From a virus: a DNA stretch of 59,057 nucleotides. Below are positions 1,588 to 59,057 of the stretch, one piece after another; within the stretch, counting starts at the first letter, position 1, and each line of letters begins with the position of its first letter. A model generated the notes under the pieces. The model saw only the letters and a program-made list of their open reading frames with translations, did not search any database and was not told the origin of the DNA. A program made the translations under genes and the position numbers. The stretch is from positions 1 through 59,057 of IMG/VR virus record IMGVR_UViG_3300033183_000090; one strand, written 5' to 3'.

Positions 1588-1812
1588 CTATTTGCTCCTT
1601 TCCAAATGTTTGAGTACGGAAGATATGTCACGATTATGTGACAGATGCAAGTCTAATTCAACTGCGACACCTCGCACACCCCCAACATCGTGTTTCTTAA
1701 TCTTGCGAGCGCGGCAGATGTGGTAGACCGCAACCCAAAAGACGACAGGCTTACGAGGCATGAGGGGATACCAGTACGCAGGGATGTGTGCAGACTTGGT
1801 ACGCTTAGGCAA
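1588..1812 (-). CDS. Doubtful small ORF, 74 aa, TTG start
   Basis: This frame overlaps the stop of the VWA gene and would start at TTG with only a weak ribosome-binding sequence. A shorter version could start at an internal ATG (MPRKPVV). The middle is hydrophobic (VVFWVAVYHICRA) and the rest is basic. Its 3' part coincides with a strong promoter and palindromic operator for the next gene. That makes it as likely to be a regulatory intergenic region as a gene. No family is recognised. Confidence 0.3.
   Translation of the reverse strand: MPKRTKSAHIPAYWYPLMPRKPVVFWVAVYHICRARKIKKHDVGGVRGVAVELDLHLSHNRDISSVLKHLERSK
1626..1661 (-). promoter_or_regulatory. Promoter overlapped by TGTC-N10-GACA operator
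   Basis: On the minus strand, TTGAAT (1656-1661) and CATAAT (1633-1638) are separated by 17 bp. The -10 box lies inside TGTCACATAATCGTGACA (1626-1643), which has perfect six-base arms (TGTCAC/GTGACA). This is one of five promoter regions in the window with operators of this form. A protein bound there would block RNA polymerase at the promoter of the gene starting at 1586. Confidence 0.7.
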
Positions 1813-3922: not shown

Positions 3923-3934
3923 GTGTGTGTCTCC

Positions 3935-5899
3935 TTATGCAAATACGCGAGATGAAATCTCAAGGATGCGTTGCGTGCAATCCGCAGGTGCGGCGTCGGT
4001 AACCGTAGTCTGCACGGCTTCCTCCATGGCACGCTTGTCACCCATGAGGGGCTTGAAGTGTAGGAAGTACATCGCCATCGCATGCAGGTTACGAGGCGAC
4101 ATGGTCTGGCTGATCTCACCACCAGTGAACGCATTGCGTATCTCGGTAGCGAACTGTGCCATCTCCTTGACCTGACCAGCAGACAGGGCAGGGTACGACT
4201 TAGATAGCAGGCGCTCCTCGTCGTCTTGGTCAAGGTAAGGCACCTCGATGAAGGCACCGAATCGGTTGAGCATCGCAAGGTTCATGGGACGCACGCCCTG
4301 ATACCAACCATGCTCGTCACCCTGACCACGGCTGTTGGCCGTAGCGACGAAGCGGAACAACTCGTGAGGCTTGACCGTGCGACCACCATCCTCGGTCAGT
4401 GTCAGACCCTTGCGCTCAAGCGCCCGCTGAATCACGAACAACACGTCGGGGCGACCCGCATCAATCTCGTCAAGCACGAAGATGCAAGGCTGTTGCATGG
4501 CACGGGGCAGGATACCCTCACGGAACTTAGTCTTGGGCGAACCACCATCGACCGTGATCTCTACACCACCCACGATGTCAGCACGTTCGAGGTTGCTGTC
4601 GAGGTTAAGTCGCTCGATGGGGAAGCCAATGCGTGCGGCGATCTGCTCGGCAAGCGTAGTCTTACCAGTGCCAGTGTGACCGTGAAGCCAGATGTTCTGG
4701 CCGAACTGGATGGCAGACATGAACTTGATGAGGTGACGCAGTCTGAACTGGTACGCAGGGTCAACGTCAGGGCAGTCAGGGTGTTGCACCACATTACCTT
4801 GGTCATCCTTCCACACCAGTGTTGCCACGTCAAAGTCCAACTCCTTGGCAAGCGAACCGTCGGGCTTGGGGAACAGCGTGTTGGCACGCACATGCTTGAC
4901 CTCGTAGGTGAGGGTGCTTGCGTCCACGGTGACCGTGCCAGACTGTGCGACTGGTGCGAACACGGGTGCCGCATTGCGTAGTCGGTCAAGTTCTGCCTGA
5001 AGATCGGCGACGGCAGTCTTGCTAGACACCATCTCGTCGATGAGTGTGTTGATGTCAGACACCTTGCCCTTAGTCGCTTGGCCTAGCAGTGCGTTGACCG
5101 CAGGCAGTAGCGATGCGTCGACGCTCACACCCTGACTGACTGCCGGGGTTGGCTTAGTCTGCTCCGGGGATGGCTCCGGGTCACCAGTTAGCGCACTGAT
5201 GATGTTCTCGACCGCACGACCCTCGCTCGATGGCATGGCCTCGTGATCGGGGATCGAGTTGCCAGACTGGATGTGCAAGTCTACGCCTGCACGCACGGCC
5301 TGTATCTCTGACTCGGTCAGTCGCTCGACTCGGTCAGAATACAACTCAGCCATACGCTTGACGATGTGAGTGCCAATGGTCACCTCATTGCGTGACTCAC
5401 GCACGATGTCAGCGGCTACGAGTACGACGTTGATTGCAGTATCTAGTTGCATGTTAGTTCCTTGTGCTTGGGTTGGTGTGTTGTTGACGATGGCGTCGAG
5501 GTCGGTTGCGATGCGGTTTGGTTGAGTGCAATGCAGGTGATAGCCACGAGCCTTGCCCGAGCCGCGCTCTTTGTTGCAACACTTGCTGTCGTCATTCATG
5601 GCCTCGGTTAGTCGCTCGATGGCCGCCTCTTGGTGACGTGCGTCGTTGTACTCCGCAGACATCAGGATGCCGTGCGCAATGTCAGCGAGTGCATTGCGAT
5701 GGATCATGTCGAGTGTGCGGTTGACGCTGAGACCGACGGCGCTTTGGTACGCCGACCTGTCCTTGTTCTCGAAGACGCCGTTCACCAAGTCACGAGTGTG
5801 CGACTTGATGTGCTTGCGTGCCTCGTTGCCTGACTCTCCGATGACAGCCAGTAGATATTTGGCAAGTGTTTGCGCACTCGCCTTGTCATGTATTCGCAT
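3935..5899 (-). CDS. MoxR/CobS-like AAA+ ATPase, 654 aa
   Basis: The AAA+ module occupies about residues 380-620. Walker A is GHTGTGKT (near 405), Walker B is IFVLDEIDA (near 473), the sensor-like strand is FVATANSRG (near 518), and the Arg-containing segment is MLNRFGAF (near 541). The first 380 residues are helical and not recognised. The gene starts at an ATG with the leader GGAGGACACACACCATG, an exact match to the reverse complement of the candidate small RNA seed. An internal in-frame ATG at 5452, preceded by AAGGAACTAAC, could yield a second product of 505 residues that keeps the ATPase. It is paired with the downstream VWA gene, as in chaperone-like MoxR-VWA systems. Confidence 0.88.
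   Translation of the reverse strand: MRIHDKASAQTLAKYLLAVIGESGNEARKHIKSHTRDLVNGVFENKDRSAYQSAVGLSVNRTLDMIHRNALADIAHGILMSAEYNDARHQEAAIERLTEAMNDDSKCCNKERGSGKARGYHLHCTQPNRIATDLDAIVNNTPTQAQGTNMQLDTAINVVLVAADIVRESRNEVTIGTHIVKRMAELYSDRVERLTESEIQAVRAGVDLHIQSGNSIPDHEAMPSSEGRAVENIISALTGDPEPSPEQTKPTPAVSQGVSVDASLLPAVNALLGQATKGKVSDINTLIDEMVSSKTAVADLQAELDRLRNAAPVFAPVAQSGTVTVDASTLTYEVKHVRANTLFPKPDGSLAKELDFDVATLVWKDDQGNVVQHPDCPDVDPAYQFRLRHLIKFMSAIQFGQNIWLHGHTGTGKTTLAEQIAARIGFPIERLNLDSNLERADIVGGVEITVDGGSPKTKFREGILPRAMQQPCIFVLDEIDAGRPDVLFVIQRALERKGLTLTEDGGRTVKPHELFRFVATANSRGQGDEHGWYQGVRPMNLAMLNRFGAFIEVPYLDQDDEERLLSKSYPALSAGQVKEMAQFATEIRNAFTGGEISQTMSPRNLHAMAMYFLHFKPLMGDKRAMEEAVQTTVTDAAPADCTQRILEISSRVFA
5450..5465 (-). 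promoter_or_regulatory. Possible internal ribosome-binding site and start in ATPase gene
   Basis: AAGGAACTAACATG occurs in frame within the ATPase gene, with good Shine-Dalgarno spacing. Initiation here would give a form lacking about 149 N-terminal residues but retaining the AAA+ domain. Confidence 0.4.
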
Positions 5900-5914
5900 G
5901 GTGTGTGTCCTCCA
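5898..5914 (-). promoter_or_regulatory. Shared translation leader, full match to small RNA seed
   Basis: The leader reads GGAGGACACACACCATG on the minus strand. Thirteen consecutive bases (GGACACACACCAT), covering part of the Shine-Dalgarno and the AU of the start codon, are complementary to the candidate small RNA encoded at the contig junction. Confidence 0.6.
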
Positions 5915-6928: not shown

Positions 6929-7158
6929 TGGTTGGCTCCGCATGTGCATTGGCATGTGCATGTGGCGGCTGGCTTGACTTCGATGCCAGTCACCTCGAAT
7001 GTGGCGTCCTCAAGCCACCACCCGTCAGCAGTTTCGGGGTCTTCGAGTTCGTGGATTTTCTCTGCGTATTTGTGCGCGTCGTCGACGCACTCGAAGTCGC
7101 CTTCGTATTGCCAGTAATGGGTCACCTCTACGGTGAGCAGATACTTGGATTTAGCCAT
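6925..7158 (-). CDS. Hypothetical protein, 77 aa, Cys-rich tail
   Basis: The protein begins with a beta-strand/helix pattern rich in aromatic and acidic residues (HYWQYEGDFECVDDAHKYAE) and ends in CTCQCTCG. The cluster of four cysteines could bind a metal. No family is recognised. The start is fixed by the shared leader GGAGGACACACATCATG. The next gene overlaps it by 4 bp in an ATGA-like arrangement, so the two are probably translated together. Confidence 0.7.
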   Translation of the reverse strand: MAKSKYLLTVEVTHYWQYEGDFECVDDAHKYAEKIHELEDPETADGWWLEDATFEVTGIEVKPAATCTCQCTCGANQ

Positions 7159-7172
7159 GATGTGTGTCCTCC
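7156..7172 (-). promoter_or_regulatory. Shared translation leader GGAGGACACACATCATG
   Basis: This is the same leader as at 1327-1342. It can pair with the candidate small RNA over 13 bases with one G-U wobble. Confidence 0.5.
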
Positions 7173-7177
7173 ATGGG

Positions 7178-7629: not shown

Positions 7630-7871
7630 TACCATGTACCCCGCTCGATCTTGTTGTCTTGGAATACGCACTGGTTGGTTTGCCATGTGTGGTCGGCGTA
7701 GTAAGTCACCTCGCCACAGCCTGCGAGCCACTCGATGGCGACGACTGCGAAGACGATGGCGATTAGTAGCGTTACGCATGCACCGCCAACGAATGACCAG
7801 ACTTTTGCCCAGACTTGGGCGCGTGCCTCTGCTTCGAGGCGGGATTGGTATGAACGAATACGAGTAGCCAT
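7629..7871 (-). CDS. Small single-pass membrane protein, 80 aa
   Basis: A basic amphipathic N-terminus (SYQSRLEAEARAQ) precedes one hydrophobic segment (about residues 25-48, GACVTLLIAIVFAVVAIEWLAG), then a polar tail with two cysteines. The pattern suggests an inner-membrane protein with a cytoplasmic N-terminus. The start follows the leader AGGAGGACACACCATG. It is the first gene after the promoter-operator at 7971-8007, so it is probably under direct repressor control. The function is unknown. Confidence 0.65.
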   Translation of the reverse strand: MATRIRSYQSRLEAEARAQVWAKVWSFVGGACVTLLIAIVFAVVAIEWLAGCGEVTYYADHTWQTNQCVFQDNKIERGTW

Positions 7872-7970
7872 GGTGTGTCCTCCTGTTAGGCTAGGGTGCA
7901 TCGGGTGGTCTGCGTTGAGACCTGCGATGTGTGTGTCATCTCACGAGAGCGCACCACGATGCGTTGGATA

Positions 7971-8007
7971 TGTCACAGATATTAGACAGCGTCGTCTTCG
8001 ATGTCAA
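7971..8007 (-). promoter_or_regulatory. Promoter overlapped by TGTC-N10-GACA operator
   Basis: The minus strand shows TTGACA (8002-8007), a 17-bp spacer and TAATAT (7979-7984), close to the ideal sigma-70 form. The -10 box sits inside TGTCTAATATCTGTGACA (7971-7988). A second, degenerate half-site begins at the -35. Transcription would run into the gene starting at 7871. The -10 and operator overlap the end of the upstream gene. Confidence 0.8.
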
Positions 8008-8206
8008 CGAACACAGCGAGGCCGATGTCGTTGGTGAAGTCGCGCAGTTCGCGGGTTCCGATGCCGACTTGCACGAAGCCGAACATCTCGAAGTCGTCAG
8101 CGTGTTGCGACGCGGACTTGTCGCCGTGGAAGCGCAAGGTGTTGCGCACGGCTGATTTCACGTTAGGGCGAGTGTTGCCATACTGGCGGTTGATGATAGT
8201 TGCCAT
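7982..8206 (-). CDS. Hypothetical protein, 74 aa
   Basis: The start is MATII, after the shared leader GGAGGACACACCCATG. The protein has a basic N-terminal half (NVKSAVRNTLRFHGDKSA) and a beta-rich acidic C-terminus. No family is recognised. Its stop codon lies inside the operator that controls the next gene, so the end of this gene and the following promoter have evolved together. Confidence 0.6.
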   Translation of the reverse strand: MATIINRQYGNTRPNVKSAVRNTLRFHGDKSASQHADDFEMFGFVQVGIGTRELRDFTNDIGLAVFVDIEDDAV

Positions 8207-8227
8207 GGGTGTGTCCTCCGTTTGGGC

Positions 8228-34993: not shown

Positions 34994-37900
34994 GTGGCTT
35001 TACGCTCTTCTCAGATTGCATCTACCCTTACTACGACCACTAATCCCGTACAGGAACAAGGGTCGCAGTCTCTTGGCTACGCCGCCAACCTAAACCCAGA
35101 AAACGTCCGCAACGTCCTGAATAGCCGCGAGTTTATTCAAGACATCATGGACTACTACGGCGAGCGGGATGGCCGCTCTTTCCAGAGTAACGCTGAAGCC
35201 ATCGACTACTTCATGTCCGACCGTCGTTGGAAGAACATGAACACCGTTTCCATGGCGAAGGAATTGATGAGTACGGGGGCCGACTCCAATGCTCAGAACG
35301 GTAGACTTGCACGTCTACAGACAGTCTTCGACGCCGCACCTAGCTTCTACGAAGAAGGTGGTGACGGCTTCGCTGGCTTTGCAGAGAACGCGGCGGCGGC
35401 AGTCCTTGACCCGATCAACCTGATCGGTTTCGGCTCTGGTGGAGCGGCGGCTAAAGCGGCGGCGGCAGGTGTCCGCGCACAAGCGGGTCATGCTCTTAGT
35501 CGTGAAGCCCTTAACGCAACTCGCCGAGAAGCAACCAGAGCGGGGCTGCGAGCAGGTATCGCAGGCGGTGCGCGTGCAGAGGGTCTCGCTGAAGGCTTCG
35601 TCTCTGGCACACAGAGCGCACTAACTCAGAACCGAAACATCAATATCGGTCTCCAAAACGAATTTAGCTACGGCCAGCTTGCCGCAGATACAGCCCTTGG
35701 CACTGTCATGGGTGGTGCGATTGGCGCTCCTATGGGTGCCGCTGGTGCTGTACTCCCGAATCCTCTGGTGCGCGGCGCGAATGGCGAACGCTTCACCATG
35801 GAAAACTCGATCACTCGCGGTATCCGTGAGGGGCAACAGCAAGTTCGAGCAGACCTGCGAGCAGGCCGTGAGGCAGATGCACTAGACGCAGAGGCTAACG
35901 CCACTCCGGCTCGCACTCCAGAAGAAGAAGAAGACGTAGCATTTAATGACACTGCCGCTCGCGCTCGCGCTCGCGCAGAACGTCTGACCTCTCAGGAGGC
36001 TGAAGCCGCCGCTGATGCACAAACTCGTGCGGCGGCTGAGTCTGACTCTACTCCTACTGTCGGCACTCCTGACCCCAATCAGCCACGTCCCGACAGCGAA
36101 GGTACACGCCTGCGCTTGTCCGCTCAGACTATGCTTGATGCCCGTCGTGCGGCAGTTGCTAAAGATGCGCAAGCGGCAAAGGCGGCAGAGTCTGGCGATG
36201 TAGCGAAGGCAAGCGAACTTCGTGCAGAGGCCGAAGCTCTTCGCCAAGGCTCGAATGACATCAAGCAGACCCTAGATATTCTCGACTCTGACGCTAACGC
36301 CAGAGAGAAGCAGGCGGCAATGGATGCGCTTGCAGAGAAGCAAAAAACTACTGTCCAACTTCTTTTGCCTGCGCCAGAAGCGCGTCAGGCATTGCCTGCG
36401 CCAGACCCGAACAACCCGATCCCATCGACTGGGCAAGTCTACGACGAGGCTGGCAACCCAATCATCCAGCTTCCTGATGGCTCTCCGGGTCGCAACTTAA
36501 ACGAAGACGAACTGCTTCGTAAGCGTGCGATCATGCCCGAGGTTAAAGTCGACGGCCAGCCGATGCGCACCAACGAGGCAGGTGCCGCCGCAATTCAGGC
36601 AGAAGCTGACGCGGCTCAAGCTCAGCGTGACCTTGAACTGGGTGTCCAGCAGGGCGAACGCCCCGGAACATCTCGACCAGATATGGTTGAAGAAGCTCGT
36701 CTCGAACAAGAGATTGCCACAGACAAAGACGCCTTAGTCGCGGCTGACCAGTCTATTCAAGAAATCAATGCTCGATTTGAGGCAGAGCCTGACCCAGAGA
36801 AGAAGCCTGCAATACAGGCCGAACTGGATCAGGCACTGGCAAGCCGCCAAGAAATTGCAAGTCGCATCAACACCAACGAGTTGCGCACTGCCCAGATTAA
36901 AGCAGAGCGCATCCAGAACGGCGCTGAAAGACAGAAGGCTCTCGACGCTGTCGCAAGCCAAGAGGATGCGCTGGCAACAGAGGCAAGCACCGATGGCACC
37001 CGCGTCGAGGCTGGCGCAGAGGATGGCGACGCACCAACCGTTGAGTTCACCGATGCGGACATCACACCAGAAGCCATAGCTGATGCGACTGGCACTAACA
37101 CCAATACATTGTTGGATGTTCTGGAGTCACTGGGTCACAACCGTAACTACGAACAGCGCGTCCTCAAAGGGCTTGGCGATGCACGCACAACTGCGGGCAA
37201 GACTAAGCGCCGCGAGTATCTAGTCGACAGACTAAAGCGGGCGAAGGCACGCGAAGTTACAGCGTCAAACCTGAAACTTCTGACTATCGACAACAAGTTC
37301 AACCGCAATATTGTTGAAGCCATGCTTGAAACGGCTGGCTTGGATGATGCCGAACTCGCTCATGCTATCGACATTTACGACAAGTTCTTGGAGCGTGCCG
37401 GATACAGCCTATTCCTTGAGAAGATGGCAGACCTTGGCCCGCTTGGAACACCAAGTCGCGTCCTGTCTGTGTTGCGCGAGACTGTTGGGCCAGATGCTGT
37501 TGCGGCTGTTGAGAAAGCAATCGCAAGTCGTGGCGCACTGCATGCAGAAATCCCACGCGATCAGTTGGTCGGCATCTACAAGTTGCTGTCGCCTGAACAA
37601 AAAGCGAAGATGACGCAGTTCAAAGCCATCTACCTCAAGAACATCAAGATGGATAACCCCGGCATCTCAGAAGCAGATGCCGAGCGCATGGCGAAACACG
37701 CCGTCGAACAACTCGTAAAAGTCCAGCTTCAGCGTACCATCGGACAAGACCCTAAAGCGGCTACCGCATTGGGCTTGGGGCAGGACATCGTTGACGACAT
37801 TCTCAGCCGTACCGAAGGCGTCCACATGGGCAAGCAGGTACGCGCAGGTTCTGGCTACTACAACCAGAATGGCCGCCTAGTTAAGGGCGGTGATGTTGTA

Positions 37901-40900
37901 AACAAAGCCCAGCGCATGCTTCAAAGCGCAAACAGCAAAGGCTACATCGGCAAGCTGATTATCCAAGGCCGTAAGCGCGACGCAGGTGGCAACACCATTC
38001 GCACCAGCGCTGGCTTCACAGCCCTAGATCAGTTGCTCGACGCGGCAATCCAGCGTGCGACTAACCGTGGTGGCGAGGCTGACCCGATCAAACGCGCTCG
38101 CGCAGTTGAGCAGGCTAAAAAGAATAACAACGACGCCATGAACCCAGAGGTTCTGGAGCCAATCGCCAAGGAATTGAACCTTGCGAATGGCATGCTTAAC
38201 CGCTGGCTGAAGGCGCAGGAAAATTACGATGGCCCAGTTGAGGGCGCTGAGATCGCCAAGATCGAGGGCAAAATCGACGAAGCGCGTATCCGGCTGGGTG
38301 ATGCTATTGTTGCCGCTCAACAAATTCTTGGGGCGAAGGGTGGCGAACATGCAGACGGCATACTGAAGGCGCTTCGTGAGCGCATCTCGATGCTCACTAA
38401 GTCTACTGGCAAAGAAGCCGCCGGAAACCGCAAAGAAAAAGCGATGGCCGAGTCGGCTCGTTCGATGATTACAGTCGAACTCAATGCCCGTCGTGCAGAG
38501 CTTGGCGCTAAGATTCGCCGTCACAACCAGCAAGTCGCAAGCGGTCAGAAGACTGATATGAGCGATGCGCAGGTTGCCGCACTGCAAGAGCAGATCGTGC
38601 AACTTGGCAAAGACCTAGACCAAGCCATCTCCAAGGTGGGCGTGGCAGAGCGCCGCATCTTCAAAGAGATGAAGAAGACACTGGCGGCTGAGCGGATTGC
38701 TCAGAACAAACTCGACATCAACGCAGGTCAGATGACTGAGGCTGAAGCCCGCGCTTCAGACGAGGCATACGAAGCGTGGCTGATGGAAGGTCTTGATCGC
38801 CAAGAGGTCGAGACCATGGCGTCAGACATGGCCGACAATGTGAACCGTGTTGAGTCTGCAAACCGCCAGCACGCGAAAGTAGTCAACGAGGAAATTGCTC
38901 CAGACTACAACAAAATGACTAAGGCGGAGTTGATCTCTCGCCTCAAAGAAGCAGAAGCCAAGCGCCAGAAACGTCTAAGCGCTGTCTCAGACATCAACAC
39001 GATGCCTGCTGGCAAGCGTTATAAGCCTTTTATGGTGAGCGTTCGTGGTGTTGAAGTCGACGTACATAACGACTTCACATTCACAAAAGGCACCGATGGA
39101 ACCGTCGAAGTTCGGATGGCTGACTCTCAAGAAGTTCTTGGGAAAATCCAAACCATCGAAGGCCACGGCTTTGTGTTCCACAAAACAGCCGACGCGGCTG
39201 ACGCGCCGAAGACTTTGTTCACAACCAATGACGCACTGAAGCGCCAGCTTCCTGTCATGTTCGAGGCTCGCATCAAGAAGCTGAACGAAGACACCTCGAA
39301 CTTCGATGTGCGTGAGAACGAACCAGACCTCGTCTACTATGAGCCAGACTACAAGCAGTCTGAGACTTATGCTGATGCGCCAGTGCGTGAGATCACTGAA
39401 GCAGACATCGTCGATCCAATCGCTCAGCCCCGCGTAGTCGGCGACCCAAGTAATCCTCTGTCAATGACAGAGGATAACTTCGATGTCCCAGCAGGACGCA
39501 AGTTGGCCGTTCAGATCATCGACCCTGAGTCTGGCAAGTCGTTCAAGTCTGTCCGGGTTTTGAGCTACAAGGGCAACCAGTCTATTGGCGATGTTCTCAA
39601 GACATCCGCCAAGTACAAGTACGTCGTCGGCCACGTTGAGGCACCATATAAGTCTGGCTCTATCGGTGCAGAAGAAACCTTCCGCCCGCTCGATCCTGAA
39701 GACGCCTTCTACCCAGCCAACGCGACTGAGCCAGTGCTTGGTGCTGAGTACGCACCGACTAGCGGAAACGACCGTAGTTCTCGCCGCATGCGCAAGAACC
39801 GTCCGCACAAGCTGGAAGATTTAGCTGGCAAGGCGATCATTGGCGCACCAGAGTTCTACGCTGATGCTGGCATCCGCAGTGTCGCAGACCTAGTCCAATA
39901 CGTCGCAAACCTTGAGATGATCCCTTGGGCGCAACTCAAGGACAAAGCCAACTACGACTTGTTCGTACAGCGCCGCATCGAGGCAGGCCAACTCCTTCAG
40001 CGCAATGCGCCTAATGGTATTGACCGTCCAGTTGCTGACGCCCGTGTAGCAGTAAACCAGTTGCGCGAAGTGTTTGCTGGCGCGGCTGACGATGAGATCG
40101 TAGCGGCAGAAGCGTTCATCATGCGTCTGGCATCGAAAAACCAAGGTCAAGCTCCGCTTATCAAGGGCGGCCTTGAGAGCCAGTACATGCCGAACACGCT
40201 TGGCGCACCGGGCGCTGAGCGTAACCGCATCTCGATTGGCGACCAAACACTGCGCGTAGACGAAGACGGCAAGCGTTACCGCCCAGCCGTTGGTGATCTT
40301 GTGCATGAAGTCGGTCACTGGATTTACATGAACCTGATGACCGAGTCCGAGAAGTTGCAGTTCTGGGATTCTGTCGGCAAGTACATGACAGAAGACGGCT
40401 TTATGATTGACCACATCCAGCGCCGTGTCGTGGATGGCATCTATTCAAACGCCATTGAGTCTCCTGCCGAGATGTTTGCCCACCAGTTCTCTGGTTGGGT
40501 TGTCGGCAACGGCATGATTAACAACACTTCGCTCTGGACTAAGATCGCTCGCAAAGCGCAGGCAATCATCAAGAAGTTCATCAAGCGCGAAGAGTTTGAA
40601 ATCGACCCAGACTTGGTGCCAATCTTCCAGAAGTACATGCCTGTACTTGAGATTGACCCAGTAACTGGTGCATCAAACGGTGGCGTTAGCCGCTTTGCAC
40701 ACCTCGAAGAGTTCGGTGCCAAGGTCGGCAAGAAAGAAGGTAAGGGTGCGGCACTCGCAGGTAAGCAACTGCGCGTACTAGACGAACGTCGCATCGAGCT
40801 TCTTGATGTACTCAACACTAGCTCAAGCGAAGCGACCGACTCACTCAGTCTGATTATGACTTTGGAGCGCGTGCAGAAAGCACTGTACGGCGACTACGGT

Positions 40901-43900
40901 GGCAAACAATACGCAAGCAACCACAAAGTCTACGACGGACAAGAGGGCAGTGGCTCTACACGCATCATGGCGTTGGACGGCAAGCCTGCGCTTAACAAGA
41001 TCATGCAGGCTCAGTACCAAGTACACGACTTCCTGCGTGACCTTCGTGCCGCTGGCGCATATCGCTACACAGATAGCGGTCTCGCTGGGGAACTGGACAT
41101 CGACGATGCAGGCCGCTCAGTTATTACCAAGTCTATTGCTGACCAGATGGAGGCGATGGATGCGGAGGCTGGCACCAATTCGTTTGAGGCACAAATTCGT
41201 GCGCTTCGTAACTCGAAAGCCGCATACGACGCACTGGACTGGGAGACAACAGCCCACCTGCATCGCCTTGCAAACAACTTAATCTTCGCCATGGAAGCGG
41301 GGATGAAGGAGTACAAGGCGATGTTTGTGCGCAATATGCCGAAGGACGCTCGTCAGGGCGGACTCGACATCGAGTTCGACACGGGCAAAGCCTTCCTGCG
41401 CAAGCCTTCAGCCAAGTCTTTGCAAGCGATGCGTCGTAACAAAGCCAAAGCAGAGCAAGAACTTCAGGAGATGGTCAACATCCAGACCCTGATCCGCGCA
41501 ATGAACGAGGCAGACATTGGCATCTACCTCGACGAAAACTCACTGGCAGACGTGAAACTGGACGTAGCTCCGGCCCGCATGTCTACCGCCGAGATCGTCA
41601 CCGAAGCCAGCGCACTGCCGAAAGATAATAAGCGCTATGTCGACTTGGCTAACGAGATGCGTAACCGCGAGAACACTCAAGGCCCATCAGCCGAAGAGCT
41701 TATCGCAGACTTGAGCGACGACGAGCGCTTGATCTTCGACACGATGGTCGACCGTGAGTCAGCCCAGCGCATCCTCGATCTGGCATCCAACGGTACTATT
41801 GCCAGCGGTAAGTTCCAGATCATTGCCGCAGACTACCTGCGCAAACTTGGCGTGGAGAACCCACTCAAGCCTACAAGCACCACAGTAAACAAGGCGATCA
41901 ATCGTCTGGTTGAGGTATCTGACGGGACTGACACTGGCAACGGTATCCCGCACGGCCTGCCTTCCTCCATGAAGGATCACATCGCTGGCCTGTCTCACCG
42001 CGAGAAGCGTGTTGAGCATAACCAGCGTTCGATCTTCACCAAGCTGATGCTGTTGATGGGTAAGAATGGTGACGACGAGATCATCAGCGAATACGATCTA
42101 GGCACGCTAGTCGGTCAACCCGGCGGCGACTTGGATGACACACTGCCGATCCCGACTAACCATCCACTTTACAACGATGTCCGTGACCGTATTCGCCTAG
42201 TCGCCCGCCTTGCAAAACAAGGCAAGCAAGATGAAGCGATCATCGAGGTTGCAGAGATTGCGTACCACATGATGTCAGGAAGCGAGCGCGACTTGCTTCG
42301 CCGAGTGGCTCGTGTCGACATCCCAATCGGCCCTAACGGCACGAAGATTGGTGGCCTCGATCCTAACGTGGAGGCAGATCAGGTTGCCCGCATCAAGGAA
42401 ATGGTTCTCGAAACCATGGAGAACGGTCAGCCGAACTGGATCGACATTGACCAAGTTCCTAAATTAGCAACTGCTAATAAGCTACTTCGGAACCTTGCTG
42501 AACACACCAGCTTCGTACTGAACGGCGTGTTTGATGGCGGCCCACAGAAACCTATGATGGCGGCGCATGGCGACATGCTTGCAGGCGCACGCAACAAGAC
42601 CCCGACCTTGTCGGCGGCTCGTGGCGTAGACGTTAAGAACATGCACCCAGCCGTGGCACCACGGGCTGTTCGTGAGTACATCAGTAACATTCCAGTGCGC
42701 ATCGAGACGGCGGTTCGCTCGTTCTTGGGTATCGACTCTGCATCGAAGTTGATCGACCACACATTCGTGAACGTGTCGAACAAGGCCAACGTGCGTGGCA
42801 TTACTGCAACAAACGAAGGCACATTCGGCTCCGGCATTTACATCCGTAGACTAAAGGATGCGGAAGCCGGGTACGATCCGCAGGCCACGAAGACCCAGCT
42901 AGAAGCTGAGATCGACAAGTCTAGCCTGTCCACCGAACAGCGTGGCGCGGCGACTGAAGTGGTTCAGGACATTCTCGGATTGCGTGAGCGCATCAAGTCT
43001 GCATCACAGGCAGGCTCGCCAAGTGCGCCAGCACTACCTGAGTTGCTACGTCGTGAGGCGCGTGCATGGTCGATCCTGAAGGACATGTTGCCAAGCATCA
43101 AACACAACAAGGTATCGCCTGTGTTTGCTCGCATCCGCAACCCGTTCCGCATGGATAGCCAGTCTAGCTACTCGCTTGTTTCGACAGACAGCAACAACAT
43201 TGGTTGGCTGATGGCTGAAGCGGCGAAACGCGGTCTGTTTAATGCAGAAGGCGCAACGAACCTACGACAAGCACTGCCACAGCAGTTCCACGGCGCAGAC
43301 CTGTTCAACGCATTGACCAGTGAAAACGGAATCATGGTTCGCCACGGCGAGGCGTCGTCATCTGCGGAAGCGAAAGACCAGTTGGCCTCCTTCTTGAGTG
43401 ACCAAGGCTTCGACTCACTTCAAGTCGACGACGGTTACATGATGTTCAATGAAGGCTCACTCCGTGAGCTTCAGGGTCAGTGGGCTGAGTCTGACATCAC
43501 AATGCACGGCGGCGAAAAGATTGGCGGCGATCTAAAGATCGGCGCACAAGTCGCAGAGGAGATGGTTGCTACAGGCGAAGTCCTAGACCAGAACATGTTT
43601 GTCGGCCTAGTTGCGCAAGCACAAAAAGCTGGCATGCCAGACGCGGCTATCCGTCCACTTCGCCGCATGGCGAAAGGCAGAGAGCTTGGGCCAAGCGACG
43701 TTGAGCGCGTTGGCCTCTTCTCATCTGTCCTGAACTACTTCAGTGAGAACTCGAAGTATTTCAGAACGATTGGTGCTAACTGGTTCGGTGACAAGATTAA
43801 GCCAGCCAACGGTACGGGCATCTACGAGATGCACGATGTTGAGCTTAATAACATCCTGTCTCCAATCTTCCTTGGTCGCAATCGTCAAGACGCATCGCTG

Positions 43901-46255
43901 AACAACCTACCTGATAGCAAGCAAGGCTTCGGGCGTTGGATGAACAAAAACCGTGGCCTATTGATGCAGGACATCAAACAGCCAGAAAGCCACATGCGCA
44001 TCCTCCAAGCACTGCGTCGTGGCCGCGCATACGTCAACAGACTTAACCCGCAAGAACGTGCAGTTGCTCTGAAGATTGCCCGTGCTTTCGAGCTTGAACT
44101 CAACAAGATGCGCGAACTTGGTATCCAAGTCGGCGACACTCGCAAGTACGGCATGGACTTCTACGTTCCACAAGTCTGGAACACAGATGCTATCCGGGCC
44201 AACCCGGCGAAGTTCGAGGAGGCGATGGTCAGGTTCTTGGCACGCGAACAGCGTAGCCCTGAGTTCTTGGGCAACGTCCTCAACGAGGCTGAGTTGCGAG
44301 CCAAGGCTAAGCGGCTGTTCTACACAATGTCTGGCGACGAAGGCATCCTAGACTTGGTGGGTGATGAGGTATCCAAGGCGGTGTCCGATCCATTCCACCA
44401 GCGTATGTTGCGCCTGTCGCCTGAAGACTACCCTGAACTTGAGGGCTTCTTGCAGAACGACCTCCAAGCACTGATGGCTAAATACTTCGACCGTACCGTT
44501 CGCAAGCGCATGCTTACCAAGAACTTCGGCGTAGAAGGTCACGCTCTGGAGGCTTACAAGGCAGTGGCTCGCGGCGGTCGTGACGCGGCGGTAGAAATCT
44601 TGTCTAGCCCGCGCATCCAAGTAATCGAGTACGACACGATCCTTGGTAAAGCTGGCAGTGAAAACATGATTGTGCCTCGCCTTCCGGGCGGTCGTGAGAC
44701 CATTATGAAGGTGGTTGCTGACATCGACCGTGTTCTAGGTACTGATCCTAATAAGCGTACCCTGAACAAACAGGCGGCGATGAACGTCATCATCAACGCT
44801 CAAGAAGCGGCGTTCCGCACAGACCCCAACTTCCTGCTCCGCGCAGAGGCTGTGGTCAACGCTATGGTCGACTTCCAGAAACCAGCGCGACTAAGCGTTA
44901 TTCAGGACATCGACAAGTTCAACGCTGTTCTCAACAAGCGCCCAATCGACGGTAGCTCTGGTCACGAGATGAAGCACAAGTTCAGCCGTGGCGTCCGTTC
45001 GTTCAACTCAGTCTCACTACTGGCTTACACCACGCTTTCGTCTATCCCTGACTTGGCGCTACCGCTCATCCGCAGTGGCAACATGACAGCGTTTGCGAAG
45101 GCTTGGTCGAAGTACGCATCAGACCCAGACTATCGCCACATGGCGAAGCGCATGGGTACTGGTATCGAGAACCTGATCCACGACCGCATGGTGCAGATGG
45201 CAGGCCAAGGCGAACAGAAGTTCACCAACGCCTTCTTTAACTTCACCCTGCTGACAGACTGGACAAACATGAACCGCGAAGTGGCGGCCATGGTGGGGTT
45301 CGAGGCGTTCAAGACTGAGATCGACCGCGCATCCCGCCTTCGTCGTGAAGGCCGCATGGACAGCATGGCATACCGCAAAGCAGTTCGCTTCCTAGAGCGT
45401 TACGGCCTGACTGGCCCCAACGCTGAGCATGACTTCTTGCACAAGAACAGCTTCGCGCTGGACTCATTGCCTCAAGATGAAGTCATCCAGAACCAGCTTA
45501 AAGCGGCGATGTTGCGCTTCACAAACGAAGCCATCTTTACGCCTAATCCGAATGACGTACCGATGTGGGCGCAAACCCCATACGGCGCGATCATCTTCCA
45601 GCTGAAGTCGTTCCCGCTGATGATGTCCAGACTTTCCAAGGACATCCTCAAGGAAGCCTTTGTACACGGCAACATGAAGCCGCTGATGTACATGGCAACG
45701 GCTGGCGTTGGTCTGGGTATGGTTTCGCTTGGCCTCAAAGACTTCGTGCAATCTCGCGGCGGCGAAGATGAGAAGTCTAGGGCGCTACGTCTACGCGACA
45801 GCGGCAAACTCGGCGAGCTTATCGGCGTCGAAGAGGGTGGCGATGTTGATGCACGACTTGGCTGGTATCTCGAAGGCTTGCTCGCAATGGGTGGTCTCGG
45901 TCTGTTCGCTGAGATGATGTACAACACATCTGCTCAGTTGGATAACGGAGCCTACGGCCAGATGCGCACAATGAGTGCGGTGTTTGGCCCAACGGTCGGC
46001 CTGATGCAACAAGGTCTGACAGTCGCGGCTGGCGCTCAAGAGGCCGCGTTCGGCGACCCAGACAAGAACTACAAAGAACGTGCCGCAGTACGCGAAGCGG
46101 CTCGCCGCATACCAATCGCTGGTGGATACCGTCCATTCGTGGAAGGCACCACAGACTTGGTGGCCGGGGAGCGTGGAGGTGACGGCGATGCACCGACTAA
46201 CAACTGGCGCAGGTCAAGCACAAGCGCTTGGTCAAAAAGGGATAGCAACTGGTGA
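34994..46255 (+). CDS. Giant polyvalent internal virion protein, 3753 aa
   Basis: The GTG start follows CTGGAGTACCGCC. The N-terminal 260 residues end in a glycine-zipper-like stretch (GTVMGGAIGAPMGAAGAVL). Long Ala/Glu/Arg coiled-coil regions follow (about 290-730 and 1080-1330). A zinc-peptidase motif VHEVGHW lies at 1770-1776 with a possible third ligand at E1822 or E1826. Around 2590-2835, FGSGIYI, PVFARIRNPF and GFDSLQ...MMFNEGSLREL match the layout of phage ADP-ribosyltransferase (ART-PolyVal) domains. The C-terminal third resembles large phage ejection proteins and has hydrophobic segments near the end (MYMATAGVGLGMVSLGL). It is likely ejected with the DNA and may modify host proteins. 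Catalysis is inferred. Confidence 0.85.
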   Translation: MALRSSQIASTLTTTTNPVQEQGSQSLGYAANLNPENVRNVLNSREFIQDIMDYYGERDGRSFQSNAEAIDYFMSDRRWKNMNTVSMAKELMSTGADSNAQNGRLARLQTVFDAAPSFYEEGGDGFAGFAENAAAAVLDPINLIGFGSGGAAAKAAAAGVRAQAGHALSREALNATRREATRAGLRAGIAGGARAEGLAEGFVSGTQSALTQNRNINIGLQNEFSYGQLAADTALGTVMGGAIGAPMGAAGAVLPNPLVRGANGERFTMENSITRGIREGQQQVRADLRAGREADALDAEANATPARTPEEEEDVAFNDTAARARARAERLTSQEAEAAADAQTRAAAESDSTPTVGTPDPNQPRPDSEGTRLRLSAQTMLDARRAAVAKDAQAAKAAESGDVAKASELRAEAEALRQGSNDIKQTLDILDSDANAREKQAAMDALAEKQKTTVQLLLPAPEARQALPAPDPNNPIPSTGQVYDEAGNPIIQLPDGSPGRNLNEDELLRKRAIMPEVKVDGQPMRTNEAGAAAIQAEADAAQAQRDLELGVQQGERPGTSRPDMVEEARLEQEIATDKDALVAADQSIQEINARFEAEPDPEKKPAIQAELDQALASRQEIASRINTNELRTAQIKAERIQNGAERQKALDAVASQEDALATEASTDGTRVEAGAEDGDAPTVEFTDADITPEAIADATGTNTNTLLDVLESLGHNRNYEQRVLKGLGDARTTAGKTKRREYLVDRLKRAKAREVTASNLKLLTIDNKFNRNIVEAMLETAGLDDAELAHAIDIYDKFLERAGYSLFLEKMADLGPLGTPSRVLSVLRETVGPDAVAAVEKAIASRGALHAEIPRDQLVGIYKLLSPEQKAKMTQFKAIYLKNIKMDNPGISEADAERMAKHAVEQLVKVQLQRTIGQDPKAATALGLGQDIVDDILSRTEGVHMGKQVRAGSGYYNQNGRLVKGGDVVNKAQRMLQSANSKGYIGKLIIQGRKRDAGGNTIRTSAGFTALDQLLDAAIQRATNRGGEADPIKRARAVEQAKKNNNDAMNPEVLEPIAKELNLANGMLNRWLKAQENYDGPVEGAEIAKIEGKIDEARIRLGDAIVAAQQILGAKGGEHADGILKALRERISMLTKSTGKEAAGNRKEKAMAESARSMITVELNARRAELGAKIRRHNQQVASGQKTDMSDAQVAALQEQIVQLGKDLDQAISKVGVAERRIFKEMKKTLAAERIAQNKLDINAGQMTEAEARASDEAYEAWLMEGLDRQEVETMASDMADNVNRVESANRQHAKVVNEEIAPDYNKMTKAELISRLKEAEAKRQKRLSAVSDINTMPAGKRYKPFMVSVRGVEVDVHNDFTFTKGTDGTVEVRMADSQEVLGKIQTIEGHGFVFHKTADAADAPKTLFTTNDALKRQLPVMFEARIKKLNEDTSNFDVRENEPDLVYYEPDYKQSETYADAPVREITEADIVDPIAQPRVVGDPSNPLSMTEDNFDVPAGRKLAVQIIDPESGKSFKSVRVLSYKGNQSIGDVLKTSAKYKYVVGHVEAPYKSGSIGAEETFRPLDPEDAFYPANATEPVLGAEYAPTSGNDRSSRRMRKNRPHKLEDLAGKAIIGAPEFYADAGIRSVADLVQYVANLEMIPWAQLKDKANYDLFVQRRIEAGQLLQRNAPNGIDRPVADARVAVNQLREVFAGAADDEIVAAEAFIMRLASKNQGQAPLIKGGLESQYMPNTLGAPGAERNRISIGDQTLRVDEDGKRYRPAVGDLVHEVGHWIYMNLMTESEKLQFWDSVGKYMTEDGFMIDHIQRRVVDGIYSNAIESPAEMFAHQFSGWVVGNGMINNTSLWTKIARKAQAIIKKFIKREEFEIDPDLVPIFQKYMPVLEIDPVTGASNGGVSRFAHLEEFGAKVGKKEGKGAALAGKQLRVLDERRIELLDVLNTSSSEATDSLSLIMTLERVQKALYGDYGGKQYASNHKVYDGQEGSGSTRIMALDGKPALNKIMQAQYQVHDFLRDLRAAGAYRYTDSGLAGELDIDDAGRSVITKSIADQMEAMDAEAGTNSFEAQIRALRNSKAAYDALDWETTAHLHRLANNLIFAMEAGMKEYKAMFVRNMPKDARQGGLDIEFDTGKAFLRKPSAKSLQAMRRNKAKAEQELQEMVNIQTLIRAMNEADIGIYLDENSLADVKLDVAPARMSTAEIVTEASALPKDNKRYVDLANEMRNRENTQGPSAEELIADLSDDERLIFDTMVDRESAQRILDLASNGTIASGKFQIIAADYLRKLGVENPLKPTSTTVNKAINRLVEVSDGTDTGNGIPHGLPSSMKDHIAGLSHREKRVEHNQRSIFTKLMLLMGKNGDDEIISEYDLGTLVGQPGGDLDDTLPIPTNHPLYNDVRDRIRLVARLAKQGKQDEAIIEVAEIAYHMMSGSERDLLRRVARVDIPIGPNGTKIGGLDPNVEADQVARIKEMVLETMENGQPNWIDIDQVPKLATANKLLRNLAEHTSFVLNGVFDGGPQKPMMAAHGDMLAGARNKTPTLSAARGVDVKNMHPAVAPRAVREYISNIPVRIETAVRSFLGIDSASKLIDHTFVNVSNKANVRGITATNEGTFGSGIYIRRLKDAEAGYDPQATKTQLEAEIDKSSLSTEQRGAATEVVQDILGLRERIKSASQAGSPSAPALPELLRREARAWSILKDMLPSIKHNKVSPVFARIRNPFRMDSQSSYSLVSTDSNNIGWLMAEAAKRGLFNAEGATNLRQALPQQFHGADLFNALTSENGIMVRHGEASSSAEAKDQLASFLSDQGFDSLQVDDGYMMFNEGSLRELQGQWAESDITMHGGEKIGGDLKIGAQVAEEMVATGEVLDQNMFVGLVAQAQKAGMPDAAIRPLRRMAKGRELGPSDVERVGLFSSVLNYFSENSKYFRTIGANWFGDKIKPANGTGIYEMHDVELNNILSPIFLGRNRQDASLNNLPDSKQGFGRWMNKNRGLLMQDIKQPESHMRILQALRRGRAYVNRLNPQERAVALKIARAFELELNKMRELGIQVGDTRKYGMDFYVPQVWNTDAIRANPAKFEEAMVRFLAREQRSPEFLGNVLNEAELRAKAKRLFYTMSGDEGILDLVGDEVSKAVSDPFHQRMLRLSPEDYPELEGFLQNDLQALMAKYFDRTVRKRMLTKNFGVEGHALEAYKAVARGGRDAAVEILSSPRIQVIEYDTILGKAGSENMIVPRLPGGRETIMKVVADIDRVLGTDPNKRTLNKQAAMNVIINAQEAAFRTDPNFLLRAEAVVNAMVDFQKPARLSVIQDIDKFNAVLNKRPIDGSSGHEMKHKFSRGVRSFNSVSLLAYTTLSSIPDLALPLIRSGNMTAFAKAWSKYASDPDYRHMAKRMGTGIENLIHDRMVQMAGQGEQKFTNAFFNFTLLTDWTNMNREVAAMVGFEAFKTEIDRASRLRREGRMDSMAYRKAVRFLERYGLTGPNAEHDFLHKNSFALDSLPQDEVIQNQLKAAMLRFTNEAIFTPNPNDVPMWAQTPYGAIIFQLKSFPLMMSRLSKDILKEAFVHGNMKPLMYMATAGVGLGMVSLGLKDFVQSRGGEDEKSRALRLRDSGKLGELIGVEEGGDVDARLGWYLEGLLAMGGLGLFAEMMYNTSAQLDNGAYGQMRTMSAVFGPTVGLMQQGLTVAAGAQEAAFGDPDKNYKERAAVREAARRIPIAGGYRPFVEGTTDLVAGERGGDGDAPTNNWRRSSTSAWSKRDSNW

Positions 46256-53783: not shown

Positions 53784-53803
53784 CTTTGTCGAAAGGAGGA
53801 CAC

Positions 53804-54136
53804 ATGAGCAACCGCAAGCCACTTACTAAACAACAACTCAAGCGGCTTCGGTACATGCTAGAAAACGAATACACTTACCGCGCCATGGCAGTCTATGTCG
53901 GCGTATGCACGGACACACTTAAACGAATACTGGTACGAGAAGGCATGGCCGAGTTTGACGGCGCTAAGTACGCTGTCAGCCCTTACAAGTCATTGCAACA
54001 AACATGGGTGCGCCCCTGCCTCAAGTGCAGGGACGATGCCCCTCGACCTAAGTGGCAATATATATGTGACAAGTGCAAAGCGTCGACCGACGTAGCGGGC
54101 TTGCCAGACAACTGGTTGGAATTTGGCGATGAGTAG
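53804..54136 (+). CDS. HTH and zinc-ribbon protein, 110 aa
   Basis: The start follows AAAGGAGGACACATG, a + strand form of the early leader. The N-terminal half has a helix-turn-helix (YTYRAMAVYVGVCTDTLKRIL). The C-terminal half has CLKC and CDKC pairs separated by about 18 residues, suited to bind zinc. It probably binds DNA in the replication/recombination operon. Its stop overlaps the resolvase start. Confidence 0.7.
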   Translation: MSNRKPLTKQQLKRLRYMLENEYTYRAMAVYVGVCTDTLKRILVREGMAEFDGAKYAVSPYKSLQQTWVRPCLKCRDDAPRPKWQYICDKCKASTDVAGLPDNWLEFGDE

Positions 54137-56126: not shown

Positions 56127-56295
56127 AAAAGGGGGGCTTTGTGGCCCCCCTTTTTTTTGTCGTGACATGTTCACTGGTGTTAAACCGATGCAGGTTGCCA
56201 CATTCGTAGCGCCTATAGACGCTGTTGTTAAGTCGAGACCTAGTTTCTAGTACCTGCGCCCAAGCCCCGCACGTCGGACATTTAATGTTCGCCAA
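56020..56295 (-). CDS. Ogr/NrdR-like zinc-ribbon protein, TTG start, uncertain C-terminus
   Basis: From a TTG overlapping the end of the XRE gene, the frame encodes MANIKCPTCGAWAQVLETRS...VYRRYECGNLHRF, the zinc-ribbon seen in Ogr/Delta-like phage activators and at the start of NrdR. After about 55 residues the frame runs through the opposite terminator and its run of eight A, and on into the converging gene. The native end may therefore be earlier or frameshifted. It is likely a small transcription activator. Confidence 0.6.
   Translation of the reverse strand: MANIKCPTCGAWAQVLETRSRLNNSVYRRYECGNLHRFNTSEHVTTKKRGATKPPFSSASSCQDATSTQRTAQAPPQASPQPRKRPRNPSQ
56127..56158 (+). terminator. Rho-independent terminator
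   Basis: AAAAGGGGGGC-TTTGTG-GCCCCCC is followed by eight T. It ends the rightward replication operon just after the last stop codon. Confidence 0.92.
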
Positions 56296-56524: not shown

Positions 56525-56921
56525 GAATGGACTCCATGCCAATGTCTAACGCCATGGCTACTAGGTCTTCAACGATTTGCTCCTTGGTCTTCTCGTACAC
56601 AAGCGCCATCCCGTAGATGTAATTGCGCGTAGTCTTAGAAGTTTCCTGCAAGCTGAGAATACCATCCATCAACTGAGGCGCAGTCACTATGTGTGGGTTG
56701 GCGTCAATCGCGTGGCTGTTCGTGCCGATGTACTCAGGCTCTGGCTGTTTTATCTCTGCCGCCTTGGACTTGTAGCGGTAGAACGTCCCCGTTGCGATGG
56801 AATACTTGCGCATGATTTCATCACGCGAAAGTTCGCCATCGTTTATGTCGCGCATGAGTGCGCGTTGGCGTGACTTAGGTAAGTGGGTACGGATTCTTAC
56901 AACATTACTTTGCTGTTCCAT
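56505..56921 (-). CDS. HTH-type early regulator, 138 aa
   Basis: The N-terminus (RALMRDINDGELSRDEIMRKYSIATGTFYRYKS) holds a recruited homeodomain-like HTH, followed by a polar linker and a helical C-terminus (LVYEKTKEQIVEDLVAMAL). It is the first gene after the double operator, with the leader GAGGACACACTCTCATG. It may act as a regulator or DNA-binding accessory. It overlaps the XRE gene by 20 bp. Confidence 0.65.
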   Translation of the reverse strand: MEQQSNVVRIRTHLPKSRQRALMRDINDGELSRDEIMRKYSIATGTFYRYKSKAAEIKQPEPEYIGTNSHAIDANPHIVTAPQLMDGILSLQETSKTTRNYIYGMALVYEKTKEQIVEDLVAMALDIGMESIHAKTKV

Positions 56922-57009
56922 GAGAGTGTGTCCTCTGTCGGTTGCCGCCTTGGTCTATGCAAGGAGAATTGCTGGGCCTACCAAGGCGGCGGTAAAACAA
57001 TGTGGCCCA

Positions 57010-57058
57010 TGTCTGGAATATAAGACACATCTTTGACATCTGTCAACTATCTGTCACA
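57010..57058 (-). promoter_or_regulatory. Promoter with operators on both -10 and -35
   Basis: TTGACA (57041-57046), a 17-bp spacer and TTATAT (57018-57023) form a strong promoter for the regulator operon starting at 56921. TGTC-N10-GACA (57010-57027) covers the -10, and TGTC-N10-CACA (57041-57058) covers the -35. Centres are 31 bp apart, about three helical turns, which favours cooperative binding on one face. Confidence 0.82.
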
Positions 57059-57255: not shown

Positions 57256-58332
57256 TCACACATGGCCGGAAGTCTGGCCGCTCACGTCTGCGTCACGTCT
57301 TGCACGTCCCACAAAAGTCCTTGCCCTGCTTTGAATAAAGCCCCGATAGCGCATGGTCATTCCTATGTCCTCATGCCCAAGCAGGTACTGCAAGTCACCC
57401 AAATCTGCACCCGCTTTCGCTGTCAGGTAGGCGAACGTGTGCCGCAGATCATGCACTCGCATTGCCTCTTCACCCTCACTCGGCAGACCGATGGCACCAC
57501 AACCCATCTTTAATACGCTATTGAGCGTCGCTGACGCGCTGTTGCTGTCTCGCCATGGGTCACCACCCTTTGCGACGAAGAGCGCCTCTGTGGGCTTCCT
57601 ACGGGCCATAACGTGGGACAGTCTACCCATCTCCTCGCTCAGTGGTATGTCCCTCGTGACCGTCTTGCCCGTCCGAGCAAGCCGACGACGCACCCGAAGC
57701 ACATCGTTCGAGAAGTTCGTCGACCGCAGACTCAGTAACTCGTTGAGCCGCACCCCAGTATCAATCAGCGTGACGAAGTGGGGGTAGTACATAGGGTATT
57801 CGCCTATGACCCAAGCAAGAAACGCATTGGCCTCGGCCTCGTCGAAGTGTACGTCTCGCGCATCCTTCACGGTTGGCATCTGTATCTCGACACCCGCAAA
57901 CCCCTCGACGTTGCGACGAGCGTGGTTAAGTATGGCGCGAAACGTGTTGAGATACCGACGAACCGATCCCGGTTTCAACCCGGTCAACTCATGCGTGACC
58001 CAAGTCTGCACCGCACCAGACGTAATGTCTGTAAGTTTCACGTCAGCCCAGAACGTGTTGAACCTGTCGACGTGTCGGAACATATCCTTGCTAGTCTTGC
58101 GCTCAATCTTCTTCCAGTCCAAGTAAGCCTTGGCCGCATCGCCGAATGTCTCCTGCGTGACACGGCCTCGCTTACCCTCGATGATTTCCTGCTCGATCTT
58201 GAGCCGCTCTTTCTCGGCAAGCCCTCGATACACAGCAGTGTCGGGCAGTCTAGTCGACTGCCTGACCCGCATACCCATGACACGTCCTTCGACGTGCCAT
58301 ACGCCATTACGCTTAACTAATTTCAGCGCCAT
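57256..58332 (-). CDS. int: Tyrosine-recombinase integrase
   Basis: The 358 residues have an N-terminal arm-binding and core-binding half (YLDWKKIERKTSKDMFRH, SVRRYLNTFRAILNHARR). The C-terminal catalytic domain has Arg in DTGVRLNELLSL (near 190), HDLRHTF (near 292), LGHEDIG and Tyr329 in MRYRGF. All expected residues are present. It would insert phage DNA into a host attB. It starts 4 bp after the LuxR-type gene, so both are cotranscribed from the double-operator promoter at 58822-58869. Confidence 0.95.
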   Translation of the reverse strand: MALKLVKRNGVWHVEGRVMGMRVRQSTRLPDTAVYRGLAEKERLKIEQEIIEGKRGRVTQETFGDAAKAYLDWKKIERKTSKDMFRHVDRFNTFWADVKLTDITSGAVQTWVTHELTGLKPGSVRRYLNTFRAILNHARRNVEGFAGVEIQMPTVKDARDVHFDEAEANAFLAWVIGEYPMYYPHFVTLIDTGVRLNELLSLRSTNFSNDVLRVRRRLARTGKTVTRDIPLSEEMGRLSHVMARRKPTEALFVAKGGDPWRDSNSASATLNSVLKMGCGAIGLPSEGEEAMRVHDLRHTFAYLTAKAGADLGDLQYLLGHEDIGMTMRYRGFIQSRARTFVGRARRDADVSGQTSGHV

Positions 58333-58336
58333 TGTG

Positions 58337-58783
58337 TTACCTCACTTTCGTTCTCAGCATTTTGGTGGTGTCCTTGTAGTCGTCTGGCCTCTCGCACCAG
58401 TCTTTCGGTATGCCTGACGTGCGTCTGTACTCCTCGTCGCTCATCTCCCGCATACATCTCTCGGCCTTCATAGCGATCTGCGCCCTAGTTTTTAGACTAG
58501 CCCTGCGCATCACGCCCTTGATGTGTACCTTGACGGTGGCCTCACTCACCATGAGCATCTCTGCCATCGCCTCGGTACTAAACCCTTGCCATATCATCTG
58601 AATGACTGCGTGTTGTTTCGGTGTAAATTCACGCATCAACGTGCAGTCATCCACACTCATTTGTCTCTGCGTCTGCGTCTGCTTATCGCCTCGAATCATC
58701 TGAGTAATTAACTCTAATTTAGCTTCTAATCCAATTACCTTTGCCTCAAGGCTGGCGACCTTAAAATGTAGGTCGTCAGTCAT
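58337..58783 (-). CDS. LuxR-type HTH regulator, 148 aa
   Basis: The start chosen is MTDDLHF after AAAGGAGACGTAAG, downstream of the promoter. The longer frame begins inside the operators. The N-terminus is a short coiled coil (LEAKVIGLEAKLELITQMI). Residues about 53-110 are a LuxR/GerE HTH (FTPKQHAVIQMIWQGFSTEA...SEATVKVHIKGVM). There is no autoinducer or response-regulator domain. Coupled with the integrase, it may time integration or excision. A direct role in quorum sensing is not supported. Confidence 0.87.
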   Translation of the reverse strand: MTDDLHFKVASLEAKVIGLEAKLELITQMIRGDKQTQTQRQMSVDDCTLMREFTPKQHAVIQMIWQGFSTEAMAEMLMVSEATVKVHIKGVMRRASLKTRAQIAMKAERCMREMSDEEYRRTSGIPKDWCERPDDYKDTTKMLRTKVR

Positions 58784-58821: not shown

Positions 58822-58869
58822 TGTCACAGATATAAGACAACATGTAATCTTTGTCAATAATCCGTGACA
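58822..58869 (-). promoter_or_regulatory. Promoter with double operator for luxR-type gene and integrase
   Basis: TTGACA (58852-58857), a 17-bp spacer and TATATC form the promoter (or a 16-bp spacer and TTATAT). Two perfect TGTC-N10-GACA sites, 58822-58839 and 58852-58869, overlap the -10 and the -35. Centres are 30 bp apart. The arrangement matches that at 57010-57058. Confidence 0.85.
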
Positions 58870-58908
58870 ACTATGGACTGCGAACCTCGGCTCGGTTACA
58901 GTATAAAT

Positions 58909-58983
58909 ACTACAGAGCAGTTCTTTGTGACTTAGCTATGGTGTGTGTCCGAAAGGGGGGTTTTGCGACCCCCCTTTCTTTTT
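58909..58983 (+). ncRNA. Candidate trans-acting small RNA (right copy)
   Basis: This copy shows the upstream context that the left one lacks: a weak promoter (TGGACT 58874-58879, 17 bp, TACAGT 58897-58902) or a TATAAA box at 58902. The seed ATGGTGTGTGTCC is at 58938-58950, followed by the hairpin and T-tract to 58983. The predicted RNA is about 70-75 nt. The block with seed and terminator has no differences from the left copy, whereas the adjoining coding region has eight. The promoter call is weak. Confidence 0.45.
58951..58983 (+). terminator. Rho-independent terminator (right copy)
   Basis: This is the same 10-bp stem and TTTTT as at 45-77. It is the predicted 3' end of the small RNA. Confidence 0.85.
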
Positions 58984-58984
58984 G

Positions 58985-59057
58985 TCATGCCTGTAAATAG
59001 TGGCGTGACGCATCATAGAAATTATCGAATTGAGTAAGCACCACATTCTCAACAACC
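58985..59057 (-). CDS. C-terminal fragment of a variant of the 141-aa protein
   Basis: The window ends inside this reading frame, so only about 24 codons are seen. They encode the same C-terminus as the gene at 79-504, with one Glu-to-Asp change and otherwise silent differences. It is the strain variant at the contig junction, not a separate full gene here. Confidence 0.7.
   Translation of the reverse strand, partial: VVENVVLTQFDNFYDASRHYLQA

Follow-up and report, generated by a model that had tools for sequence, protein, structure and literature searches.

The window, that is, the whole 59,057-base IMG/VR virus record analyzed here, comes from an uncultured marine phage whose nearest isolate is Roseobacter phage CRP-810. 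At one end lie a tyrosine integrase and a LuxR-type regulator, at the other an early operon with CobT-like and CobS-like genes, and the same short element is found at both ends. On the + strand, this element consists of a G/U-rich stretch with an intrinsic terminator directly behind it; on the - strand, GGACACACACCATAGCTAA stands just beyond the hairpin, with no Shine-Dalgarno sequence and with ATA where ATG would be expected. The region comprises the following features:

1 to 148, + strand: second copy of the junction, from the other strain variant; contig-end overlap, 95% identical to 58907 to 59054
79 to 504, - strand: final early gene ahead of the element; most differences between the variants at its 3' end are synonymous
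1805 to 5899, - strand: CobT-like (1805 to 3922) and CobS-like (3935 to 5899) early genes
57256 to 58332, - strand: tyrosine integrase
58337 to 58783, - strand: LuxR-type (GerE) regulator gene adjoining the element
58829 to 58857, - strand: likely LuxR promoter, TTGACA-17-TATATC (2 of 200 shuffles as good)
58908 to 58983, + strand: putative small RNA of about 70 to 76 nt, seed region plus intrinsic terminator (from terminator scan, fold, and sequence; the RNA start is a guess)
58917 to 58993 (= 11 to 87): 77-nt block identical in both variants, covering motif and terminator, with diverged flanks
58938 to 58950, + strand: candidate seed AUGGUGUGUGUCC, antisense to early leaders (from match counts and fold)
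58951 to 58983, + strand: intrinsic terminator, stem GAAAGGGGGG/CCCCCCTTTC with a TTTTT tail (from terminator scan; no U-tract on the - strand)

An earlier note on this DNA placed the motif at both window ends; it is present at both, but the two copies are not independent. The ends overlap over 148 nt, and in CRP-810, L006/L007, L010, and L008, the order CobS, CobT, small genes, LuxR, integrase runs unbroken through the junction, showing that the ends join where the CobS/CobT early operon meets the LuxR-integrase genes. Taken together, the unbroken order in relatives and the 95% identity of the ends imply that the window ends are one junction in two strain variants. The record, classed as "linear," closes on itself. 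Duplication of prophage attachment sites (attL/attR) was ruled out as an explanation because the relatives' gene order crosses the junction and the differences are mostly synonymous. That motif and terminator remained constant while their neighbors changed points to selection, although the comparison involves one pair of sequences at the end of a contig, where an assembler may favor identical stretches. No close relatives of the junction were found in IMG/VR or among isolated phages, and a search for prophage relatives through the integrase in 84,980 species genomes yielded no integrase above 28% identity over any long stretch, all hits being distant. Elsewhere in the window, the structural gene region holds a single open reading frame of 3753 codons (34994 to 46255).

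The motif ATGGTGTGTGTCC occurs twice on the + strand (32 to 44 and 58938 to 58950), with the stem GAAAGGGGGG-TTTTGCGA-CCCCCCTTTC and then TTTTT immediately 3' of it; coordinates and terminator scan thus bear out the original description of a motif directly 5' of a strong + strand intrinsic terminator at both ends. That no + strand gene precedes the motif holds for ordinary gene sizes, none of which lies on the antisense strand between LuxR and the hairpin, but a 20-codon + strand open reading frame (58873 to 58935), lacking a Shine-Dalgarno sequence, stops just 5' of motif and terminator, 2 nt upstream of the motif. The window had no match to any described RNA family in Rfam at gathering thresholds, and a tRNA search of the window found none. 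Another strong hairpin, AAAAGGGGGGC...GCCCCCCTTTTTTTT (56127 to 56160), apparently two-way, lies between convergent genes.

The weak point conceded at the outset, that no strong promoter is seen, persists: scans of the antisense (+) strand found no promoter above chance in any of seven phages. On the - strand, three promoter-like sites (58829 to 58857, 7979 to 8007, and 57017 to 57046) share TTGACA, a spacing of 17 to 18 nt, and TATAT/TAATAT preceded by TGTCT. TGTCA/TGACA repeats surround these sites, which, judging from their sequence, could possibly be a common early promoter with an operator.

Matches to the reverse complement of the motif, or sequences related to it, fall in the following leaders:

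1328 to 1344, - strand: leader of the gene at 1329, GAGGACACACATC-ATG
3920 to 3937, - strand: leader of the CobT-like gene, AAGGAGACACACAC-ATG (variant)
5898 to 5914, - strand: leader of the CobS-like ATPase gene, GGAGGACACACACC-ATG; exact seed complement
7157 to 7173, - strand: start of the gene at 7158 with its leader, GGACACACATCATGGCTAAATC; the best of the predicted targets
7870 to 7886, - strand: leader of the gene at 7871, AGGAGGACACACC-ATG
8205 to 8221, - strand: leader of the gene at 8206, GGAGGACACACCC-ATG
53795 to 53807, + strand: leader of a + strand gene, GGAGGACACATG
56919 to 56937, - strand: leader of the gene at 56921 (weak helix-turn-helix match), AGAGGACACACTCTC-ATG

The reverse complement of ATGGTGTGTGTCC is exact at 5898 to 5910, in the ribosome-binding site of the ATPase gene starting at 5899, and differs by one change at 1328 and at 7157, as had been reported for these three leaders. 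Among the others listed as related, GGACACA is present at 7871, 8206, 56921, and on the + strand at 53795 to 53807 (cited there as 53804), and the leader at 3922 carries the variant GGAGACACACACATG. Several early leaders on the - strand share the consensus AGGAGGACACAC(N0-4)ATG. Five sites complementary to the seed with at most one mismatch were observed where 0.14 would be expected, so that complementarity to the start regions of multiple mRNAs, a property of trans-acting base-pairing small RNAs, exceeds chance; with three mismatches allowed, 16 sites against 18.4 expected are not above chance. Predicted duplexes between the junction and the early leaders reach -40 kcal/mol, compared to a shuffled best of -25.0 (SD, 2.3), and none of 200 shuffles was as good. 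The leader and start at 7158 are matched over 19 nt by the - strand junction copy (GGACACACACCATAGCTAA against GGACACACATCATGGCTAA), and both differences permit G-U pairs. Sharing of one leader sequence type is common within a phage, and this type is not private to the window phage: 18 other IMG/VR contigs carry GGAGGACACACAYCATG, and on many of them it precedes an open frame in unrelated phages.

The junction was compared with those of nine other phages (L006, L008, L010, L041, L045, L048, L051, L145, and CRP-810; L045 and L048 are partial contigs). In all nine, a hairpin sits either at the end of the gene that precedes LuxR or shortly beyond that gene. Beyond the hairpin, the sense strand is C/A-rich in several relatives and ACAC-rich in the window, L041, L045, L145, and L051. 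The 35 nt past the hairpin resemble the phage's own leader in L006 (GAGACACGCACAGCAAAC against GAGACACGCATGGGAAAC), L010 (GAGCATCACCA), and L041 (ACACACACACGAAGAC against ACACACACATGAATAC). Hairpins and leaders were partly picked by eye, which makes the P values optimistic: with the window excluded, comparison with random stretches of the same phages gave a Fisher P of about 1e-5 (in a set that also held L044 and lacked L145), and similarity to own-phage over other-phage leaders gave a permutation P of 0.0003 to 0.0005, with every leave-one-out P at or below 0.0025. Controls for the latter test were negative (reverse complement, P = 0.99; following 35 nt, P = 0.83). A weaker own-leader signal also came from the sequence ahead of the hairpin (P = 0.012 without the window), and automatic gene starts overlapping that sequence may account for it.

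The earlier note had proposed a search for co-variation of seed and leader in related phages; its outcome is favorable but uneven. Own-phage leaders fit better than those of other phages, but the signal weakens once Shine-Dalgarno sequences and start codons are masked (P = 0.01 without the window, with the support from L051 vanishing). The ranking by duplex energy is also less clear, placing the own phage first in the window, L006, and L051, second in L010, and fifth or lower in six; and in four relatives (L008, L048, L045, and CRP-810) the own-leader match is slight or absent. In the window, L006, L010, L041, L051, and L145, the stretch matches a leader spacer no worse than the two most similar leaders match each other, helped slightly by being longer than a masked leader. 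Of the 10 phages, 3 (the window, at 58951 to 58983, L045, and L145) carry a U-tract after the hairpin on the antisense strand, and none carries one on the sense strand. These tracts fit a terminator for antisense transcripts, giving three phages a Rho-independent terminator such as a trans-acting small RNA would have; L006 and L010, among the best seed-leader matches, lack it. The L008-type sequence CACACACATGATGA was discounted as support, as it sits before the hairpin, inside the coding end of the preceding gene. L008 (15120 to 15160), L043, L044, and L048 carry ACACACACATGATGA followed by a small hairpin whose stem is changed on both sides between phages; it lies within the final coding part (HTHD tail) of the gene that precedes LuxR.

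As the best single reading, we tentatively favor a small RNA that would silence the C/A-rich translation-initiation regions of shared early leaders in a GcvB-like manner. Transcribed against the direction of the early operon, a short RNA would begin in the region upstream of LuxR and run to the + strand terminator (approximately 58908 to 58983). Its G/U-rich UUAGCUAUGGUGUGUGUCC would pair with six to eight early mRNAs (CobS, CobT, and the genes at 1329, 7158, 7871, 8206, and 56921) in the C/A-rich spacer that separates the Shine-Dalgarno sequence from the start codon. The start site would thereby be masked, along with the ACA repeats that enhance translation, and the early genes could be kept silent or delayed, for example, in a lysogen. 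The earlier note had proposed such an RNA, and its complementarity, location, and + strand terminator stand; constancy between the two variants and own-phage leader similarity in several relatives are further observations, but promoter signal is at chance and the U-tract is confined to the three phages named; transcription, pairing, repression, and timing are what the putative RNA would add to these observations.

The same - strand motif might instead be the decayed start of a lost early gene beside a terminator, with no regulatory RNA at all: GGACACACACC would have lost its ATG through a change to ATA, and the codons after it resemble GCT AAA. Similarity does extend past the seed into codons 2 and 3 of the gene at 7158, the leaders within one phage are often of one sequence type, and the L051 stretch looks like an ordinary Shine-Dalgarno sequence and ATG followed by a 4-codon frame. 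Several diverged phages would, however, need to carry such a relic in this one position right after the hairpin, and it would need to stay constant between two variants whose flanks have diverged; we consider this reading rather unlikely. The junction copies of the window, L006, L010, and L041 keep the spacer though they lack both Shine-Dalgarno sequence and ATG, and such copies are easier to reconcile with an antisense seed than with a functional gene start.

It is unlikely, too, that the element is simply the 3' end of the early operon, with the hairpin as terminator or 3' end protector, the C/A-rich, G-poor - strand tail serving Rho-dependent termination before a separate LuxR promoter, and the likeness to leaders compositional. 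The recurrence of the hairpin and of the ACAC-rich sense strand after it would agree with this, LuxR has a good promoter of its own downstream in the window, and the mutual similarity of the tails is mostly compositional (reached by 17 of 500 dinucleotide shuffles and by no simple shuffle). Yet composition should suit the C/A-rich leaders of other phages equally, whereas own leaders fit better, and the antisense U-tracts would be left unexplained. Finally, the terminator could belong to the 20-codon frame as a + strand micropeptide gene (MDCEPRLGYSINTTEQFFVT), whose stop codon lies 15 nt 5' of the terminator stem and in which one of the two variant differences is synonymous; with no Shine-Dalgarno sequence and no counterpart of the frame in relatives, this is highly improbable.

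The pairing region of GcvB is its G/U-rich R1, and the small RNA proposed here would be like it in that one RNA sets a G/U-rich region against C/A-rich ACA motifs close to where ribosomes bind on many mRNAs. Such ACA motifs or repeats near ribosome-binding sites are translation enhancers in enteric bacteria and are silenced by GcvB (PMC3879156). GcvB is chromosomal and acts in enteric bacteria on amino-acid uptake and metabolism genes, whereas the window element would target phage genes, is judged from sequence complementarity alone, and would pair in the spacer between Shine-Dalgarno sequence and AUG. Temperate phages also use short antisense RNAs on development genes, such as lambda OOP and P22 sar, the latter interfering with translation initiation of ant (reviewed in PMC12197685). 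Each has one named target in that review, in contrast to the window element, which could act in trans on six to eight leaders through a repeated motif. The start-associated sequences of cluster K mycobacteriophages, as described in the available part of PMC3203893, are likewise repeated at the ribosome-binding sites of several genes and conserved beyond Shine-Dalgarno pairing. The AGGAGGACACAC leaders share both properties; their sequence is different, and that part of PMC3203893 describes no complementary RNA element.

The CRP-810 family comprises temperate marine phages that carry cobS and cobT; most members have an integrase as well, and often there is a LuxR regulator that may control lysogeny, as suggested for CRP-810-type phages; the term "small RNA" is absent from that paper (PMC11288001). 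The window has the order of this type, cobS-cobT and then LuxR and integrase, the last two being present in many, not all, family members. CRP-810 itself differs in that its own junction hairpin has neither a leader match nor a U-tract on either strand. For this temperate marine family, it is possible, if doubtful, that a fast-evolving small RNA between the early operon and the lysogeny genes has a seed that co-evolves with a repeated C/A-rich leader, one RNA silencing the early set at translation as a post-transcriptional counterpart of a phage repressor. If so, one small RNA and a shared leader would control the whole early gene set of a temperate phage, seed and leader evolving together. 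Lysis-lysogeny control at the RNA level would then have a model open to direct testing, in a marine phage family that is distributed worldwide and includes one cultured member, CRP-810.
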